From positions 1-44,784 of IMG/VR virus record IMGVR_UViG_3300024520_000138: a stretch of 44,784 nt of DNA, one strand, 5' to 3'. Under the pieces are notes generated by a model. That model saw only the letters and a list, made by a program, of their open reading frames with translations. It had not been told where the DNA came from and made no database searches. The position numbers and the translations under genes were made by a program. Positions 28,742 to 40,617 of this stretch are shown here, in pieces (within the stretch, counting starts at the first letter, position 1; each line of letters starts with the position of its first letter). Source of the DNA: a virus.

Positions 28742-29155
28742 TTATGAGGCGGCGACATATCGATGATCAACATCGTAACTACTTGCCGAAGTAAAATACA
28801 AAGAGCAGCGTGGTTGTGAACCATCACTACCTGCGGTAGTATGTCCTGATAGTGTAGCTGGTGAAGCTGAATGAAACATAGGAAAGAAACAGTAATCATT
28901 AAAGGTGAAGTATACGTACTCAGCCAGGCTAGCACTACCGGCAGTAGACGCTAAGGAAGTTTTAATTTCAGATGTTCCTACAGCAGCAGTGGCAATGGAA
29001 ATGGCAGTAGCAGATAGTAGACCAATACTAGCTTGAACATTTTGAGGGGCACTAGCATCGGCGTTAGCTTGCGCTGTGATATCAGCTTGCAGGTTATTCA
29101 TCTGCGTACTAGTTAAGATGGGTCCATCTGTAAATGTCTGGTTTGTCCAAGTCAT
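28742..29155 (-). CDS. Tail-tip paralogue C, 137 aa
   Basis: Third of three tandem genes sharing MTWTNQTFTDGPILTSTQMN-like starts, a middle Ala-rich helix with IxAxAVGxSEIK, and an end with YFTFNDYCFFPMFHSA. All three end in a Tyr-rich strand (SYDVDHRYVAAS). Probably fibre or tip proteins that trimerise or assemble together. Two bases separate it from paralogue B. Confidence 0.65.
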   Translation of the reverse strand: MTWTNQTFTDGPILTSTQMNNLQADITAQANADASAPQNVQASIGLLSATAISIATAAVGTSEIKTSLASTAGSASLAEYVYFTFNDYCFFPMFHSASPATLSGHTTAGSDGSQPRCSLYFTSASSYDVDHRYVAAS

Positions 29156-29157
29156 GT

Positions 29158-29580
29158 CTAAGACCCTGTTGTAACATAGCGATAAGCAACTTCATAAGAA
29201 GCTTCCGCTGTGACAGCTGTTAAAGAAAACCTAGGTGATGAACCACTACCACCGTCAGATAAGTGAGGTCTCCAGGTAGTTCGTTGTGCTGATACGTAGA
29301 TCATAGGAAAGAAAGCGTTTCGGCTTAGAATAATTCCTACGTTTTCACCAACACTAAGACTACCACTAGTAGACGTCAGCGCTGTTGCTAATTTGCTTCG
29401 TACGACAGCGCTGGCTGCGATCTTAGCTGCAGTAATAGATCCTGTTGCATAACTACCAACTTGTTGCTTAGGTGCACCAGTATCACCATTAGCTTGTGCT
29501 GTGATATCGTCATTGACAGCGTTAAGGGCAGTGTCGTGAAGCTCCTGACCTACTTGGAATATTGTTCCTACCCAGGTCAT
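29158..29580 (-). CDS. Tail-tip paralogue B, 140 aa
   Basis: Middle copy: MTWVGTIFQVGQELHDTALN, AKIAASAVVRSKLATALTST, then NAFFPMIYVSA and GGSGSSPRFSL. The end matches its neighbours (SYEVAYRYVTTGS). Divergence from copies A and C is moderate and spread evenly, so the duplications are old. Confidence 0.65.
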   Translation of the reverse strand: MTWVGTIFQVGQELHDTALNAVNDDITAQANGDTGAPKQQVGSYATGSITAAKIAASAVVRSKLATALTSTSGSLSVGENVGIILSRNAFFPMIYVSAQRTTWRPHLSDGGSGSSPRFSLTAVTAEASYEVAYRYVTTGS

Positions 29581-29582
29581 AG

Positions 29583-30005
29583 TTATACCCCCGTTGTTAG
29601 ATAGAGGTGGTCAATATCGTAATCTGTACTTGCGATAGGACCATTTAGTAAAGAGAACCGTGGTGATGCCCCACTACCTCCGTCTGTATCGTGTGACCGA
29701 ACAAGAACGAATTCATTCGGTGTTGAATGTATCATTGGAAAGAAAGCATAATCATTCAAGGTTATACTCACAGCAGTATCGGTTGCTAATGTTCCCGCTG
29801 AAGTTGCAGCAGCTTGAGATAGCTCACTTCGACCAACTGCAGCTGCCGCTATACGAGCAGCGTTGAATGCATCATTGGCGATAGCAGCTGTGACTAACTT
29901 AGGTGCACCAGTATCACCATTAGCTTTGGCGAGAATATCCGCCTGAAGATTCGTCAACTGGGCAGCAGTTAAAGTTCCGGAGAAAGTACGTCCTGTCCAA
30001 GTCAT
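29583..30005 (-). CDS. Tail-tip paralogue A, 140 aa
   Basis: First copy, starting four bases inside the end of the 661-residue tail protein (ATGA). MTWTGRTFSGTLTAAQLTNL, then ANGDTGAPKLV (also in copy B as ANGDTGAPK), an Ala-rich helical hinge, NDYAFFPMIHST and GGSGASPRFSLL. Similar small proteins with FFPMI and GGSG..PRFSL occur in other environmental phages near tail-tip genes. I infer a host-contact or fibre role. Confidence 0.65.
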   Translation of the reverse strand: MTWTGRTFSGTLTAAQLTNLQADILAKANGDTGAPKLVTAAIANDAFNAARIAAAAVGRSELSQAAATSAGTLATDTAVSITLNDYAFFPMIHSTPNEFVLVRSHDTDGGSGASPRFSLLNGPIASTDYDIDHLYLTTGV

Positions 30006-31987
30006 GTCAGTACCTCCGTTGTGCTACCCAGGGAGGTAACATCAAGAACGAATGGGAAGGATATCTGAGTTCGGTCAACGCTCATTTTGATTAAAGATTT
30101 GTCCATATCATACCGCTTGGTAAGTACCCGATAAGATTCTGAAATAGAATGGAAATCGTCTTGGACATATATCGTTTCCCCGACTGTAGGAAATAGACCT
30201 GCCATAGTAGTTGTAATTTCAAGCCTGTCGTCAGGTTCCGAGTTAGCTAATATCCGTCGCTGCGTAAAGTTCAAAGCCGAAGACGAGTTCACATACCAAA
30301 CATTATTATCTTTTATTAAGTCTTCTTTAAGACCAAAGCTATTAATAGACGTAGTGTCATCCGTAAAGACTGTGAATGTATGAAAGTTTGAAGTGACGTC
30401 GTAACCACCTGACGCATGCTGTCGATTGACAACATCATTAGTATCAAACTTCAAAGTCAAATCTTTAATGCTTGAGTTATCGAAAGAACCCACTGCAGCC
30501 GAGACGATACCAAACCGGTTGAAGTTAAGTTTATCTTCGTTGATAAAAATAGCGGAGTGAGTATGCCTGGCGATTTTCCTCAGTATCTCCGTGACTTTTT
30601 GTCCGGTGAAATTAGCTTCCATGAAGACCGAGTCACCACTGAAGATCGCAGCCCAGGCGTTAAAAGAGTCCCAGTTTATATCCGGGTTTGAAGTGCTCTG
30701 AACATTACTATAACCTCCGTATGATGTAACGGTTGCCCAGACTATATCAGTGGGGAGATCAGTGCCACTGGAGAACGTAACTGGAACGTCAGGAGTACCA
30801 ACTTTTCTTTCAGATAGTTGTTGGAACTTATCAATGACCGTTATAGTACAAAGCTCTTTTGAATAGTTGAGAGTTCGCATTTTACCAGAGAATACAATAG
30901 AATCTTCCCCACTCGTATTCTCTGGTATATCCATTGACTGAACCTCTCGGTCTGGTACAAGTTGCATCACTTTATAAAGCTTAGTCTTGTTATTAAGTAT
31001 TTTAAAACCGCCGATGTAAGACACGCCGCCAACAGCGACCTGAGAATGAAAGACTCCGTTATAAATTGCACCCGATAAATCGAAAGCATTCGGGAGTATA
31101 AGTTCAAAAATGAAATCCTCCCTATCTGTTCCAACAGTGGTTGTTCCTTGAACGTACATGGCTGTCCCATCTTCACTAATGCTTAGATGGGTAAAAAAAT
31201 CAAGGCCCAATACTTCGAATAGGTCTAAAGTCTTGTCGATTGTAGCACTTGAAGGGTCGTATGCTGTGCCCAACGTATACTGTATTAGTATCTTCTGGTC
31301 ACCACCTATCATAAACAACTTAGTCCCGATATCGTTTATAGCTAACCCGAAAGCTGTCGAATCGTCGTTTGCCGTATCAAGGTCAAAGCCTGACCCACTA
31401 TACGAGATAGTAGATAAATCCCACGGCGTTGACATCTCGTACCTGAAAATCTTTTCAAAAGCTATTGAATTGACGAAAAGATACTGACCAGCATTTCCCG
31501 TGACCATACCACTAGCGACTGAAACTTCTGTTAATGAAGCGGTTACGGTATCATAAGTTGCTGTACTTAAATCTTCCGCGACACTTAAGGTGTACGAGTA
31601 TATTTCAGTGACCGTTGCCAGGATAAACATTTTAGTGAAAGCTGCGTTAAAGACAACATCAGCAGCAGCCCCAAGTTGGGTAGTGTAGTCAAATACAGTA
31701 TCATCTACCGCCCCGGCTAAATCAGAGTCAGAGCCTGGGCCAAATCCAAATTTTAGTACCGTGGTTTGTTCCATCAAAGTTTTGTCTAACCGAATAGCGT
31801 TCAACTCCTTATCAGTATTAATAATGGGGATGGATATTGTTTTAGGTTTTACCTCATCCCATTTCGTAGAGATTGAAGGCCATTTTAATACTCGATTACT
31901 ATAGTCGTCCGAACCAACTATGAAAGTCCGTTGGGGACTACCCGGTTTAAATCGTTTTGTTTTCGCTATAAAACTATCAGTAACCAT
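30002..31987 (-). CDS. Tail hub/tip protein with inserted beta-propeller-like domain, 661 aa
   Basis: The protein seems to be a tail hub (gp27-like) domain split by a long insert. Residues 1-85 (NRVLKWPSIS, ISIPIINTDKELN, TTVLKFGFGP) and from about 345 (EDSIVFSGKMRTLNYSKEL, CTITVIDKFQQLSERKVG) form one hub-like unit; the rest includes TGQKVTEILRKIARHTHSAI and ends with VDRTQISFPF. Between them, roughly 95-335, are repeated blades such as AEDLSTATYDTV, RYEMSTPWDLSTISY and IQYTLGTAYDPSSATI, separated by GTKLFMIG-type strands. The same blades occur in the 385-residue protein at 32343-33500. The insert is a likely receptor-binding or particle-exposed domain. Confidence 0.7.
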   Translation of the reverse strand: MVTDSFIAKTKRFKPGSPQRTFIVGSDDYSNRVLKWPSISTKWDEVKPKTISIPIINTDKELNAIRLDKTLMEQTTVLKFGFGPGSDSDLAGAVDDTVFDYTTQLGAAADVVFNAAFTKMFILATVTEIYSYTLSVAEDLSTATYDTVTASLTEVSVASGMVTGNAGQYLFVNSIAFEKIFRYEMSTPWDLSTISYSGSGFDLDTANDDSTAFGLAINDIGTKLFMIGGDQKILIQYTLGTAYDPSSATIDKTLDLFEVLGLDFFTHLSISEDGTAMYVQGTTTVGTDREDFIFELILPNAFDLSGAIYNGVFHSQVAVGGVSYIGGFKILNNKTKLYKVMQLVPDREVQSMDIPENTSGEDSIVFSGKMRTLNYSKELCTITVIDKFQQLSERKVGTPDVPVTFSSGTDLPTDIVWATVTSYGGYSNVQSTSNPDINWDSFNAWAAIFSGDSVFMEANFTGQKVTEILRKIARHTHSAIFINEDKLNFNRFGIVSAAVGSFDNSSIKDLTLKFDTNDVVNRQHASGGYDVTSNFHTFTVFTDDTTSINSFGLKEDLIKDNNVWYVNSSSALNFTQRRILANSEPDDRLEITTTMAGLFPTVGETIYVQDDFHSISESYRVLTKRYDMDKSLIKMSVDRTQISFPFVLDVTSLGSTTEVLT

Positions 31988-32346
31988 TAGAATGATCCCA
32001 GTTCAATGATACCTTCGAATCTTTTATCGTAAGGTTCAGACAATTTACTAATAGGTGCAGTCTTATTCACCAAGCGAACATTGAAAGAACCCGAGGTTAC
32101 ATCTGTCGGTATCCAGATCAAGTCCGTATTGTTTTCCCACCAATCATTCACAACCGACCGAAAGGATGAGTTGACATAACTTACAGTGAATTTAACTCTT
32201 TCCTTAATCACCCAGGTGTAGTTAAAATAAGCCCCAGTATCCGTAGTATATTTGGAACCCACCTTCTGTGATGAATTTAAAAATCCCTGGTACCTGGGGA
32301 AGACTAAAACACTTGACAAACTATTCGCCATTAAAATGTTGCTCAT
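31987..32346 (-). CDS. Tail-tip protein, propeller-free paralogue, 119 aa
   Basis: Starts four bases inside the upstream gene and ends where the hub gene begins. Its core, FTVSYVNSSFRSVVNDWWENN and RLVNKTAPISKLSEPYDKRF, matches the two ends of the 385-residue neighbour (FISEADRAIINGWWKND and KLINRSLPIDSVIEPHNNLF). It is thus a compact version of the same domain. It may form part of the distal tail ring. Function inferred from position only. Confidence 0.7.
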   Translation of the reverse strand: MSNILMANSLSSVLVFPRYQGFLNSSQKVGSKYTTDTGAYFNYTWVIKERVKFTVSYVNSSFRSVVNDWWENNTDLIWIPTDVTSGSFNVRLVNKTAPISKLSEPYDKRFEGIIELGSF

Positions 32347-33500
32347 TCGTATGTCCTCAAATCCAACTTACCTCTGAACAAATTGTTGTGAGGTTCAATA
32401 ACTGAATCGATCGGTAGGCTTCTATTAATTAATTTAATGTTTATAGCTGTCGGTGCGTTGGTGGCAAACTGATAGATAGTGTCAGTGGTACTATCTGGAA
32501 CATAGAAGTGTTTAAAGTTTTGGCTGAACGATACGCCCCGTGGTGCGTTAAGTGCTGGAACTGGAACTTGCATATCGTAAACAGCACCATTGTAAACGGA
32601 AGTTGTTATATCGTAAGGTGTAGCTAGGTCATATTCGAAAAGGGAGTCCATCGTAAGACCTGCTATGTACATTTTGAAGCCGCCAAAAGCGAATTGGATG
32701 CCAAACGGAATTCCATCTTCGGATGATACGTCGAAACTCTGACCACTATATACAAATGATTCAATACCCCACGGAGCCGATAACGTGTAGCGATATACTT
32801 TATCAGTCTCCGCACCTAGTAAAATACACACAGCGCCATCACCTGAAAAAACCATCCCCGCTGTTGAATCGTCTTCAGTAGAAAAATTAATGCTAGTAAC
32901 GCCATCAGGTGTTGCTGTTGTAATATCCCAAGCAGTTGTTAATGTGAACGGTGTTATATCATCGCTACTGATATCTTGGCAGAACAACTTGAGGCCGTCA
33001 GGTTTGAAAAAGAACGTCTGGCAACTAGACACGCCCGTAAGAACGAGGTTCACTGAGTTGTATATAGCCGTTGATAGATCGTAAGCCGTTGATAGATCGT
33101 ATTCAAACAAAGTTGCAGGTATACTCTGCACAACCCACAACTTCAAACCGTCGTCAGAAATTCTTGCCTCACGTAAACGTGATGCTGCAGCCAGTTGACT
33201 AGTAACGTCTAATGAATTCCCTATGTAAATAGAATTACTAATCTCAAATCCCTCGAACGAATCCCAGAACCTAAGAGGGGTATCGTTTTTCCACCAACCA
33301 TTGATGATTGCCCGGTCAGCTTCCGAGATAAACCTAACACCCATCTTGAAGTTTTTAAAGCTACCCCACTTGTATACATAATCAGAACCATCTCGAACCG
33401 TTATTCGGTCTTCAAGTTTCCGGTGGGGTATTTCAAAGTTGAACTCCGGGTTTATAACAACCGTATCAGTACTGGTTGTGTCTTGTAGAATAATAGGCAT
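32343..33500 (-). CDS. Tail-tip protein with inserted beta-propeller-like domain, 385 aa
   Basis: Residues 1-85 (IPHRKLEDRITV, YKWGSFKNFKMGVRFISEAD, GWWKNDTPLRFW) and 345-385 (INIKLINRSLPIDSVIEPHN) are the same domain as the 119-residue neighbour. An insert of about 255 residues between them has four or five blades: LFEYDLSTAYDLSTAIY, TPFTLTTAWDITTATP, VYRYTLSAPWGIESFVYSG, LFEYDLATPYDITTSVY, each preceded by a strand like DGLKLWVV or GGFKMYIAG. This fits a beta-propeller. An exact 18-bp tandem duplication at 33067-33102 produced the doubled YDLSTA. Near the start codon the gene touches the tape measure stop. Likely part of the host-recognition tip. Confidence 0.7.
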   Translation of the reverse strand: MPIILQDTTSTDTVVINPEFNFEIPHRKLEDRITVRDGSDYVYKWGSFKNFKMGVRFISEADRAIINGWWKNDTPLRFWDSFEGFEISNSIYIGNSLDVTSQLAAASRLREARISDDGLKLWVVQSIPATLFEYDLSTAYDLSTAIYNSVNLVLTGVSSCQTFFFKPDGLKLFCQDISSDDITPFTLTTAWDITTATPDGVTSINFSTEDDSTAGMVFSGDGAVCILLGAETDKVYRYTLSAPWGIESFVYSGQSFDVSSEDGIPFGIQFAFGGFKMYIAGLTMDSLFEYDLATPYDITTSVYNGAVYDMQVPVPALNAPRGVSFSQNFKHFYVPDSTTDTIYQFATNAPTAINIKLINRSLPIDSVIEPHNNLFRGKLDLRTYE

Positions 33501-35587
33501 TAGTCGAGATTCCTCTCAATGGCAGCCTGGCGTATACCGGCGCTGTCCAGGGTATCAAGGGCGGGGATAACCCGTTCACTCACAAAGACTTCAAGTTCAA
33601 TGTCACTGATGTCTTCAAACCGTTCAGCTGATGTGTTAATTTGTATTTCGATATTACCAATACTAGTACCACCACCTGCGCTACCCTGGGCATCGAGAAA
33701 GTCTGTTAGATCAGCGTTTTGCTTGGGGCTGATAATTCGTTCACCTTTATTGACAAGTACTGTAGTTTCCTCAGGTACGAATCCTAAACCACCATGTGCT
33801 GCGACTGATGCACCTAGCGAGGATCCTGTTGCTGAGAATGATCCAAACTGTGCCAGTGCTTGACTACCATGGGAAGCAGCAACTACAGGGGCAGTTAAGC
33901 TTATAGGCCAAGGTGCTGCTGATACTGACGCCAGGGTATTGGCTGCTGCTAATCCTGCTGCCTTACCTACCTCCGCGGAAGCTTCAGTCTTAACAGACGC
34001 TATAGTTAACGCAGAAGTTATCTTACGTTGAATCTGCATAGCGACAAATGTAGCGATGACTTCTTTTAAAACGTTCTTAGCTATTTGCTTAAATACCTTG
34101 GAAGCTTTCTCACCTTCTACGATCACTTCTCCAACACCTTGACCAATAGCCTTGGTTGTATTCATCATTGTAGCAAATAGAGACTTAGCGAATTCTTCAG
34201 TCAATGACTTCTGGTTAGATAAGAATAATTCACTTTGTTCTCGCATGAAGTCCATTATTCCGGAAACCTTCTCAGCATTCATAACAGCTATCTCTTCAAC
34301 AGCTTCACCAAATACTGATAGTTGTTCAATCATAGCTTCTGCTTGAGCTGATGCTAGTTCAGTATTAATACCAAACATTTCTTTTAGTGCAGTGCCTGTT
34401 GAATCAGCGTTCTCCAGTACTATTTCAGATACGCCTCCCATGGTTTCTATTAGTACATCCATTTCGGCGGACGCAGCTTTTGCAGCTTCTGATATAATAT
34501 CACCGAATGATTTGGCGACTATATCATCATCAAACAAAGACTTAATATTATGCCATGCATTCTCTGCGAAGGATCCAAAAGACGTCCATATAATTTTAAA
34601 CTGAGATACAAAAATCCTAGCGAGGAATGGGGCAATATCCATAGCCATGTTTAAGATTCCAACAAACATTTCTTTGAAGCCAGCAGTCACTTCGTTCAAT
34701 ACGTCCGCGGTAGTATCTAGATCAAACAAACGAGAAAAGAAGTTTCCAACAGTGTTAAACACCTGGGCAACTACATTGCCAAATGTTAGGATATTCTTTA
34801 TTGCACTCTTGACAAACAGTACGATGTTTCCACGGCTGTTAGCTACGAAGTCAGCGAACTGATTAGCTAATCCAGTAACCATGGGAATCAATTCGTTACC
34901 TACTGCACGAGCTGTGCCTCCTAACGCAGTTGTGACACGTAGCATTGAATCTTTGTATTTCTCTGCGTTAGCTACACCCTGCGCGTCCATTGTCCCGCCT
35001 AAGAATGCTAGGTCAGCTGCTGCATCCTTAAACGACTGAGAACCTTTCTGCATTGTCTGTAACACTGATACGCCTTCTGAATCAAACAGCTTAAAGGCTA
35101 ATCGGACTTTATCAGACTGTGACTCTACGCCTAACAGAGAATCAGCTACAACGTTCATCTGTTGGTCAAGTGGTATCGATGCTAAATCTCTGGCGTTAAG
35201 TCCCAGCTCAGCAATGGCAGTCTTAGCTTCACCAGAACCCTCGGCAGCTTCTGCAATTCGTCGAGTCATACGTTGTAGAGCTAAGTCAAAAGTATTAGCT
35301 TCGACACCACCGAGCTTGGCAGCAAAATGAAACTCTGATAGCTTATCAACTGCTATGCCCAATCTCGTCGAAAGCTTTCCAACTTTATCCTGAGCATTAG
35401 CTATCTTGTTTAGAAATAAAACGGTAGCAGTGGCAGCAGCAGTGAAAGCAAGAGCGGCAACTTTACCAACTCGTGCTGCTGCTTTGACTGTTGCCTTCGC
35501 TGCCTTCGCTACTGACTTAGTTGCTTTACCGAAGGTACTTGACAAACCATCAACACCTTTCAGGGTAAACTGTATGACGTTAGCCAC
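33500..35587 (-). CDS. Tail tape measure protein
   Basis: 695 residues starting at a GTG (35587). The start (FTLKGVDGLSSTFGKATKSV) and Ala-rich helices are typical. The middle has hydrophobic segments (AALAFTAAATATVLFL and the region AVGNELIPMVTGLANQF) as in other tape measures that pass through membranes. The central part ANAEKYKDSMLRVTTALGGT belongs to the tail-tape family. At about 0.15 nm per residue the tail would be near 100 nm. The GTG overlaps the frameshift chaperone stop (TAGTG), giving tight coupling. A His/Gly-rich stretch near residue 600 (SLGASVAAHGGLGFVPEETT) matches the C-terminal motif of many tape measures. Confidence 0.88.
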   Translation of the reverse strand: MANVIQFTLKGVDGLSSTFGKATKSVAKAAKATVKAAARVGKVAALAFTAAATATVLFLNKIANAQDKVGKLSTRLGIAVDKLSEFHFAAKLGGVEANTFDLALQRMTRRIAEAAEGSGEAKTAIAELGLNARDLASIPLDQQMNVVADSLLGVESQSDKVRLAFKLFDSEGVSVLQTMQKGSQSFKDAAADLAFLGGTMDAQGVANAEKYKDSMLRVTTALGGTARAVGNELIPMVTGLANQFADFVANSRGNIVLFVKSAIKNILTFGNVVAQVFNTVGNFFSRLFDLDTTADVLNEVTAGFKEMFVGILNMAMDIAPFLARIFVSQFKIIWTSFGSFAENAWHNIKSLFDDDIVAKSFGDIISEAAKAASAEMDVLIETMGGVSEIVLENADSTGTALKEMFGINTELASAQAEAMIEQLSVFGEAVEEIAVMNAEKVSGIMDFMREQSELFLSNQKSLTEEFAKSLFATMMNTTKAIGQGVGEVIVEGEKASKVFKQIAKNVLKEVIATFVAMQIQRKITSALTIASVKTEASAEVGKAAGLAAANTLASVSAAPWPISLTAPVVAASHGSQALAQFGSFSATGSSLGASVAAHGGLGFVPEETTVLVNKGERIISPKQNADLTDFLDAQGSAGGGTSIGNIEIQINTSAERFEDISDIELEVFVSERVIPALDTLDSAGIRQAAIERNLD

Positions 35588-38681: not shown

Positions 38682-38962
38682 TAGTCAGTCTCCTTAGAAA
38701 TAGCTTTGAAAGCGAATCGTTTTTTGTAGGGTTTACTAGCGACAGTTGCATCTGTTTGAGCAACGTAATACCCCAGGGTATTCACCAGGGTATACAAACC
38801 GTAATAATGACCGTTACCACTACTAGTCATTGATAGTGAGTTGACTAACGTATCACTACCGTTAAAAATCGACAGACTAATTGCGCTCGGTGTTATTCCA
38901 CTACTAACCCAAGTAACTTTGATTGTGTTACCGATTAGCTTTTTCTTTAGTGTAGAACTCAT
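38681..38962 (-). CDS. Small beta-rich virion-region protein, 93 aa
   Basis: MSSTLKKKLIGNTIKVTWVS then alternating strand residues (NSLSMTSSGNGHYYGLYTLV). A single Ig-like or jelly-roll domain. It starts four bases before the end of the repeat protein (ATGA) and ends at the adaptor start. No family recognised; position suggests a virion decoration or fibre-associated protein. Confidence 0.6.
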   Translation of the reverse strand: MSSTLKKKLIGNTIKVTWVSSGITPSAISLSIFNGSDTLVNSLSMTSSGNGHYYGLYTLVNTLGYYVAQTDATVASKPYKKRFAFKAISKETD

Positions 38963-40617
38963 TCTATAGTACCCTCAATGTGGTCTAGTAGGGATTGGAG
39001 AATTGGCAAGCCTGGTTCAATCGACATATCAATTGACAAGCCTTCTTCGACGTCCATTAGTATCGCGACAGAGACCAGTATAGCAACCAAACTAACGAAC
39101 TGTGTTTCACTGAGTTCTGTTTGAGCTATTGACAATTGAGAAATTAATTCAACCATTACTGATTGCGATTCGGAAGACTCAGCTTGAGAGATTGACGTAC
39201 TAATAACGTTCTGCAGGTTCACCGATTGGGATTCGCTTAATTCTGTTTGAGCCATTACTAGGGCAGCACCTGCAACAACTTCAATTGATACAGCTTGAGA
39301 TTCACTAGCTTCCGTCTGAGCCATAACCAATTGAATGAGATTCTCAATGGAAACTACTTGTGATTCAGTTAACTCAGTTTGCGACAAACTTAGCTGCGCT
39401 GGAACTTCAAGGTTTAGTACCTGAGATTCAGTTAGCTCAGTTTGTGACATAAGCAATTCAATCAGTCCCTGTACAGTAACACTCTGAGTTTCACTAGCCT
39501 CAGTTTGCGCCATCGTTAACGCAGAGGTCACTACGCTCACCAGGGATACAGCTTGAGATTCACTAGCTTCAGTTTGAGTCATAACTAATTGGATAATACC
39601 TTCTATCAAAATAGCCTGAGATTCACTAGCTTCAGTTTGAGACATGACGATTGAAGTTAGAAGTTGTACCAGCAAACTCTGTGACTCAGAAGACTCTGTT
39701 TGCGACATCACCAGGGTAATCAAACCGGCTAAGGAGACAGCTTGCGTTTCGGTCGCTTCGGTTTGGCTCATTATTAAACTAGCTATCGAGTTTAGCAGAA
39801 CAGTTTGCACGTCGGTCGCTTCGGACTGAATCATCACTAGATTGGCCGGGACTTCCAGTGACACTGAATTGGTTTCCCCGGTTTCGGTTTGCGTAATGGC
39901 TATGTCAGTCGGGACTTGCAATGATACCGCTTGTGTTTCGGTCGCTTCGGTTTGAGCCATCGTCAAAGTTTTAGCGCTGATGCCTTTCAGTATCAATGAT
40001 AAATAAATGCTGTGATTGTCCGCGGCTTTAGTATAAGTCATTGCTGGGCCATCAGCCCCCGCTTGAGTGGACATATTAATGCCACAATTATAGGAGCCTC
40101 CCGTGGTAGCACCAACTTCTCGCTCAGTTTGGTTAGCGCCAGCGGTTCGCGCGCCTGTTGGGTCTTCCGAATATAGAACATCAGTGAGCATATCGTCGGA
40201 CGTTTCACCAGTCGGTGAAGCTGTAATAGTCCCAGTGCCAGCGGTGCTGGTCGCGTTTGCTGTAGTCCCCACAGGCGTCGTTTGGTCTACATTTTCAAAG
40301 TAACCAACGACCAATCCAGCGCTATCGCGCGATGTCCCCCATGTCCCCGTTACTGTGTCTGTGTCTTTTACGGTAGGCACTAAAGTCCAAAGCGACGCGG
40401 CGTGATAAGTATCGAACGCAGCCGAAACTTGAGATGTAAAATTCTCAGGGGTCGGCGTATTTAATGTTATGCTTGAAGGGTGGTTTACATCATCATTCGA
40501 AACGGCACCAGCCGACAAACACACGTCAACTCCAGCCGAAATGTTTAGCGCGCCAGTTGTTAAACTGGTGATAGCTTTATCAGCCGTGACAAGACTGCTG
40601 TTGTAACTAACAGTCAT
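38959..40617 (-). CDS. Fibre-like protein with 14 tandem 21-residue repeats, 552 aa
   Basis: Residues 1-216 form a beta-rich domain (LTTGALNISAGVDVCLSAGA, then YFENVDQTTPVGTTANAT), similar in style to galactose-binding-like or jelly-roll domains of environmental phages. Residues 217-515 are 14 imperfect copies of a 21-residue unit close to LVMSQTEASESQAVSLxxLIT, with two copies lengthened by two residues. The last 37 residues (DVEEGLSIDMSIEPGL) are a cap-like end. Each unit has a T/S-E-x-S/T-E-S-Q centre and alternating hydrophobic residues, as expected for a beta-solenoid or beta-rich rod. It lies between virion decoration-like proteins and head-tail connector genes. Probable surface fibre or capsid spike. 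Confidence 0.65.
   Translation of the reverse strand: MTVSYNSSLVTADKAITSLTTGALNISAGVDVCLSAGAVSNDDVNHPSSITLNTPTPENFTSQVSAAFDTYHAASLWTLVPTVKDTDTVTGTWGTSRDSAGLVVGYFENVDQTTPVGTTANATSTAGTGTITASPTGETSDDMLTDVLYSEDPTGARTAGANQTEREVGATTGGSYNCGINMSTQAGADGPAMTYTKAADNHSIYLSLILKGISAKTLTMAQTEATETQAVSLQVPTDIAITQTETGETNSVSLEVPANLVMIQSEATDVQTVLLNSIASLIMSQTEATETQAVSLAGLITLVMSQTESSESQSLLVQLLTSIVMSQTEASESQAILIEGIIQLVMTQTEASESQAVSLVSVVTSALTMAQTEASETQSVTVQGLIELLMSQTELTESQVLNLEVPAQLSLSQTELTESQVVSIENLIQLVMAQTEASESQAVSIEVVAGAALVMAQTELSESQSVNLQNVISTSISQAESSESQSVMVELISQLSIAQTELSETQFVSLVAILVSVAILMDVEEGLSIDMSIEPGLPILQSLLDHIEGTIE
39073..39969 (-). repeat. 63-bp tandem repeat array, 14 units (protein level 21 aa)
   Basis: Coding repeats of the fibre-like gene. 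Bases such as CTTCAGTTTGAGAC recur about every 63 bases on the plus strand. Units are diverged (about half to four-fifths identical residues), so not a recent expansion. Confidence 0.85.

Follow-up and report, generated by a model that had tools for sequence, protein, structure and literature searches.

Related predicted five-bladed propellers in two neighbouring tail-tip proteins of a siphophage, with a most likely role in binding host-surface glycan

The evolved Dit proteins (evoDits) of lactococcal, Lactobacillus and streptococcal siphophages are split by an internal insertion (PMC10688798, PMC9692632, PMC7291167). Such decorated Dits have been described mainly in Gram-positive phages and carry the insert in the galectin domain (PMC9692632, PMC7291167). 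In lactococcal phages, insertions of a carbohydrate-binding module (CBM) in Dit extend host adsorption, and phages without a CBM that were given that of a lactococcal evoDit regained the ability to infect exopolysaccharide-bearing hosts (PMC10688798). A propeller with five blades is the proposed GlcNAc-binding part of the receptor-binding protein (RBP) of the Staphylococcus aureus phage phi11, and many propellers with this number of blades act on carbohydrates (PMC4901313).

The locus described here lies in a window of 44,784 nucleotides, which is the whole stretch of viral DNA that was analysed (IMG/VR record IMGVR_UViG_3300024520_000138). As in the evoDits, the two ends of a 385-aa protein align to a complete protein that lacks the insert (at profile positions 7-80 and 78-117), and forms with and without the insert occur together among relatives. 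Unlike in the evoDit systems, an unrelated hub protein also carries the module in the window.

The tail-tip genes and their inserts

On the minus strand of the window, the tape-measure gene is followed directly by the genes of the 385-aa, 119-aa and 661-aa proteins:

33500..35587, minus strand: tape-measure protein, the synteny anchor (PHROG tape-measure families, best E 9.6e-41)
32343..33500, minus strand: Dit-like tail-tip protein of 385 aa, interrupted by a predicted five-bladed propeller (flanks match the 119-aa protein and the Dit-like profile of relatives)
32448..33257, minus strand: predicted propeller within the 385-aa protein (residues ~82-351), with five blades, each of ~52 aa (AlphaFold2, Foldseek)
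31987..32346, minus strand: 119-aa insert-free Dit-like protein, an old paralogue (flank matches, alignment of 30 homologues, tree)
30002..31987, minus strand: 661-aa hub-like tail protein with a propeller insert (~32% identity to the hubs of relatives; core family of 47 loci)
30917..31741, minus strand: propeller insert of the hub, residues ~83-357, in a hairpin with the edges FGF and TSGED (match to the insert of the 385-aa protein, blade HMM, empty site in relatives)

The same gene order from the tape measure on was found in the relatives L017, L019 and L020, and a second contig encodes proteins identical to those of the window across the tail-tip stretch. The names Dit and hub are inferred from synteny, that is, from gene order and size. 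The Dit-like gene follows the tape measure and its product is ring-sized; the Dit-like part of the AlphaFold2 model mostly has pLDDT below 50. The hub gene follows both the tape-measure and the Dit-like genes, and one member of the hub family matches a PHROG 'tail protein' at 2e-4. A profile search of the hub against the PDB returned no significant match, and the comparison of the Dit-like and hub proteins with λ gpM and gpL, with tail proteins of Vibrio K303 and 1.207.B and with the PDB returned nothing significant.

Beyond the hub, the region 28742-30005 encodes three paralogues in tandem, each of 137-140 aa. At their place L017, L019 and L020 have a single protein of 333-367 aa with the same MTW... 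start; the window thus seems to carry several copies of a short form. Elsewhere in the window (38959-40617) a 552-aa protein consists of about a dozen repeats of 25-28 aa of the type MAQTEASESQAVSL.

In the 385-aa protein, the first 80-odd residues and the final 30-odd matched the 119-aa protein (E 8e-8 for the N half, E 2e-6 for the C half), and the joined flanks scored z ~27 against shuffles. This agrees with the original prediction, made from the letters alone, that the two proteins share both ends. The extra middle that it described is also there, but its length, given as about 255 residues, is about 270: the bounds of both inserts were set from the empty sites in relatives, giving 270 aa in the 385-aa protein, whose remainder is a tail-tip protein of ~117 aa, and ~275 aa in the hub. 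As had further been claimed, the hub carries a similar insert. The two inserts are 28% identical over 254 aa (E 5e-18), and with z ~25 against shuffles a chance similarity between them is ruled out. Without its insert, the hub resembled neither the 119-aa protein (z 0.3) nor the flanks of the 385-aa protein (z -0.7), and thus the two carriers are unrelated.

The 119-aa protein had also been regarded as the natural insert-free control. It is a homologue without the insert, but not a fresh duplicate of the 385-aa protein: a tree of 35 Dit-like domains placed the two copies of the window apart, which does not support a recent duplication, and joined the 119-aa protein to one of the copies of L107 (96/85), a phage that likewise has two. 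Being an old paralogue, the 119-aa protein serves less well as a control than the relatives do. Among the sampled relatives, the window alone has a loop insert in a Dit-like protein; the extra Dit-like copies of L115 and L116 have N-terminal extensions instead. In these two loci, two or three Dit-like genes lie in a row upstream of the hub, and the extensions, present in some of them, measure ~185-190 aa.

The propeller fold and its family

The insert of the 385-aa protein is predicted to form a separate five-bladed beta-propeller. In the AlphaFold2 model, pLDDT was mostly 70-92 in the blades, and for most of the flanks it stayed below 50. An outer strand at residues 90-98 comes first and is followed by five blades up to residue 347, with A/B-strand motifs at 111, 162, 215, 267 and 322, and with four strands per blade in most blades according to DSSP. 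Judged from the model strands only, blade 5 lacks an outer strand and strand 90-98 precedes blade 1, as the closure of the ring requires; by the blade HMM, other arrays likewise begin with a half-blade. The top Foldseek matches of the insert in the PDB were propellers, and several models of a viral library superposed on it over 260-265 residues at ~2 Å. The profile of the module matched 27 PDB sequences, the best being the YVTN surface-layer protein 1l0q (E 2.5e-15); the phi11 RBP propeller was absent from these matches. The predicted fold is in line with the earlier view of the repeats as a domain of their own. This structural check, proposed for both proteins, succeeded for the 385-aa insert; the AlphaFold2 model of the hub had a pLDDT of 34, and for this reason the hub insert is read, from homology alone, as having the same propeller fold.

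The family extends well beyond this locus. We gathered 80 viral loci with the module found in Lentibacter phage ICBM2 and counted their blades with a blade HMM. The blade count was almost always five or a multiple of five: exactly five blades were detected in 75 of 93 interior, non-identical arrays, and fifteen in three. Many of the remaining arrays are divergent or split, so that the HMM misses a blade, and the two of the window are among these, with four blades detected in the hub insert. Modules of the same sequence family and blade number, with structure matches as well, occur in ICBM2 gp51, in the Roseobacter phages CRP-13 and CRP-738 and in the Synechococcus phage S-SKS1; there, they sit in tail or fibre proteins of other kinds that lack Dit-like or hub flanks. 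Most carriers are annotated as hypothetical proteins, for example, ICBM2 gp51 and CRP-13 gp43. The flanks of the carriers fell into many clusters (21 among 66 N-terminal flanks and 12 among 49 C-terminal flanks), which points to mobility of the module among phage tail and fibre proteins. Sequence comparison thus supports the propeller as a widespread mobile module of unrelated tail and fibre proteins, in line with the mobile or selected domain that the original prediction had envisaged.

A different phage contig, L039 (IMGVR_UViG_3300024518_001892), encodes a propeller 55% identical to that of ICBM2; the prefix 3300024518 is also that of the twin contig of the window, and both presumably come from the same metagenome. 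In the 484-kb uncultured phage LR756508, a transposase-like ORF, which by eye looks like an IS200/IS605 TnpB, follows soon after the propeller gene (L011:7856-9154).

The hub hairpin in relatives

Relatives were collected from IMG/VR, L017 through its tape measure and L019 and L020 through hub alignments, and then extended to 47 loci. No phage record was found to contain a relative of the Dit-like or hub flanks, and two scans of GTDB genomes yielded no confirmed relative. We surveyed the hub loop from HMM edges with short extrapolation. It comprised 1-10 residues, with GFTHPTSGDEL as the typical motif of the site, in 37 of the 45 other measurable loci (near-duplicates counted). L020, for example, has a 392-aa hub without an insert and one Dit-like protein of 117 aa. 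Residue by residue, the edges of the window insert, FGF...TSGED, aligned with GFTHATSGDEL of L106.

In L017 and L019, each with one insert-free Dit-like protein, a Laminin_G_3 (LamG) domain (PF13385) was found at the very hairpin that holds the propeller in the window (E 1.2e-5, slightly below the Pfam cut-off, and E 2.2e-10, above it, respectively). Laminin_G_3 is a jelly-roll, in contrast to the propeller, and has no sequence relation to it. The hairpin of L117 holds six repeats of ~45 residues (YRWDGALWAQVG) with no match in solved structures, presumably another propeller. Additionally, the C terminus of this 965-aa hub (L117:8914-11811) has a different array of about eight ~43-aa repeats (TWTERANPKNFAL); both arrays are probably propellers of another kind.

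A tree of 32 hub cores placed the insert-free L106 and L103 nearest to the window by path; L103 also had the highest identity to it (44%). On the best tree the four large loop inserts require at least three changes; the well-supported branches alone are compatible with a single origin of the four. An ancestral propeller is ruled out by the insert-free relatives. With this position empty in most relatives and filled by LamG or other repeats in a few, both inserts are derived, and domains have been exchanged repeatedly at the hub hairpin. The derived state of the propellers, which had been set against an ancestral one, is borne out by most of the hub relatives and by all other sampled Dit-like relatives, none of which has a loop insert.

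Insertions occur at other positions of the hub family as well. LamG was found in L108, where it lies in an N-terminal loop, and in L143 and L147, where it lies at the N terminus. A second insertion site lies ~180 residues into the C-part of the hubs of L132, L136 and L147; in L136 it holds a weakly matching CBM_4_9-like domain (E 0.002), and L132 and L147 have a similar sequence. An apparent 144-aa loop insert in L148 was rejected, since the loop itself proved short on reading and the additional residues are located beyond it.

Function and origin of the propellers

We consider it probable that, in this uncultured siphophage, five-bladed propellers of one family sit in-frame in surface hairpins of two tail-tip proteins, most likely projecting and binding a host-surface glycan, with the hub hairpin as a recurrent exchange site. 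The propellers would point outward, one from the Dit-like ring and the other from the hub; glycan binding there would add avidity before the hub commits. Receptor or capsule binding is inferred here from analogy with evoDit and the phi11 RBP, together with the exchange of LamG and propeller at one hairpin. As the hub loop is empty in relatives or holds another domain of sugar-binding type, it looks like a plug-in site, probably for parts that grip the host surface. We lean, by a narrower measure, towards a more specific version: the hairpin would be a dedicated cassette site for lectin-like modules of unrelated folds (propeller, LamG, six-repeat array, or none), and one phage would, for avidity, also have placed such a module in a second tail-tip ring.

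Instead of merely binding a surface polymer, the propellers might cleave it as enzymes of a lactonase-, esterase- or glycosidase-like kind. By profile, they weakly resemble SGL, lactonase and paraoxonase propellers, which would fit, as would the action of many five-bladed propellers on carbohydrates (PMC4901313). However, the Pfam matches of the 385-aa protein stay below the curated cut-offs. Moreover, the hub propeller stands where relatives have LamG, which is usually a binding fold, and we regard catalysis as improbable. About as improbable is a purely structural role, in which ligand-free domains would serve as decorations or spacers for tail-tip stability or particle contacts. Permissive loops should accept any tolerated domain, and the majority of relatives manage without an insert, but it is lectin-type folds (LamG, CBM_4_9-like, propeller) that recur at the tail-tip sites of these phages, and the window has retained two copies.

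Whatever the function of the propellers, their origin bears on the claim of two independent insertions. The module is present twice, as claimed; it may have been gained separately, as the inserts were sisters in 0 of 200 bootstrap trees, though both are on long branches. A single gain followed by copying within the genome into the second protein would suit the location of both inserts in one 3.5-kb segment and their similar G+C content (0.431 and 0.425; no clear foreign base-composition signature was seen between inserts and flanks). It is a less likely course of events, given that the inserts share only 28% identity with each other and each is ~35% identical to modules of other phages, although we hold it to be less doubtful than either of the functional alternatives.

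Taken together with glycan binding as the preferred reading, the locus extends the 'evolved Dit' principle beyond dairy phages, with another fold and a second tail-tip site, and offers one loop with natural empty, LamG and propeller alleles. The ligand of a five-bladed propeller so widespread in phage tails would give a direct handle on the host range of uncultured phages.

In the evoDits, the insert is a BppA- or J-1-type CBM within a galectin domain, whereas in the window it is a predicted five-bladed propeller in a ring-sized carrier of ~117 aa; as this is the whole insert-free form, the Dit-like protein of the window has no galectin domain. The platform of the phi11 RBP has five blades, like the predicted module of the window; its blades are four-stranded and closed by an N-terminal strand, an arrangement that the module may share, and it serves host recognition, but it is part of a trimeric RBP, whereas the propellers of the window are inserts in the tail-tip core. 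Thus, evolved Dits and the phi11 propeller are known, and what is new is a propeller instead of a CBM, a ring-sized Dit-like carrier, and a second use of the module in the hub.
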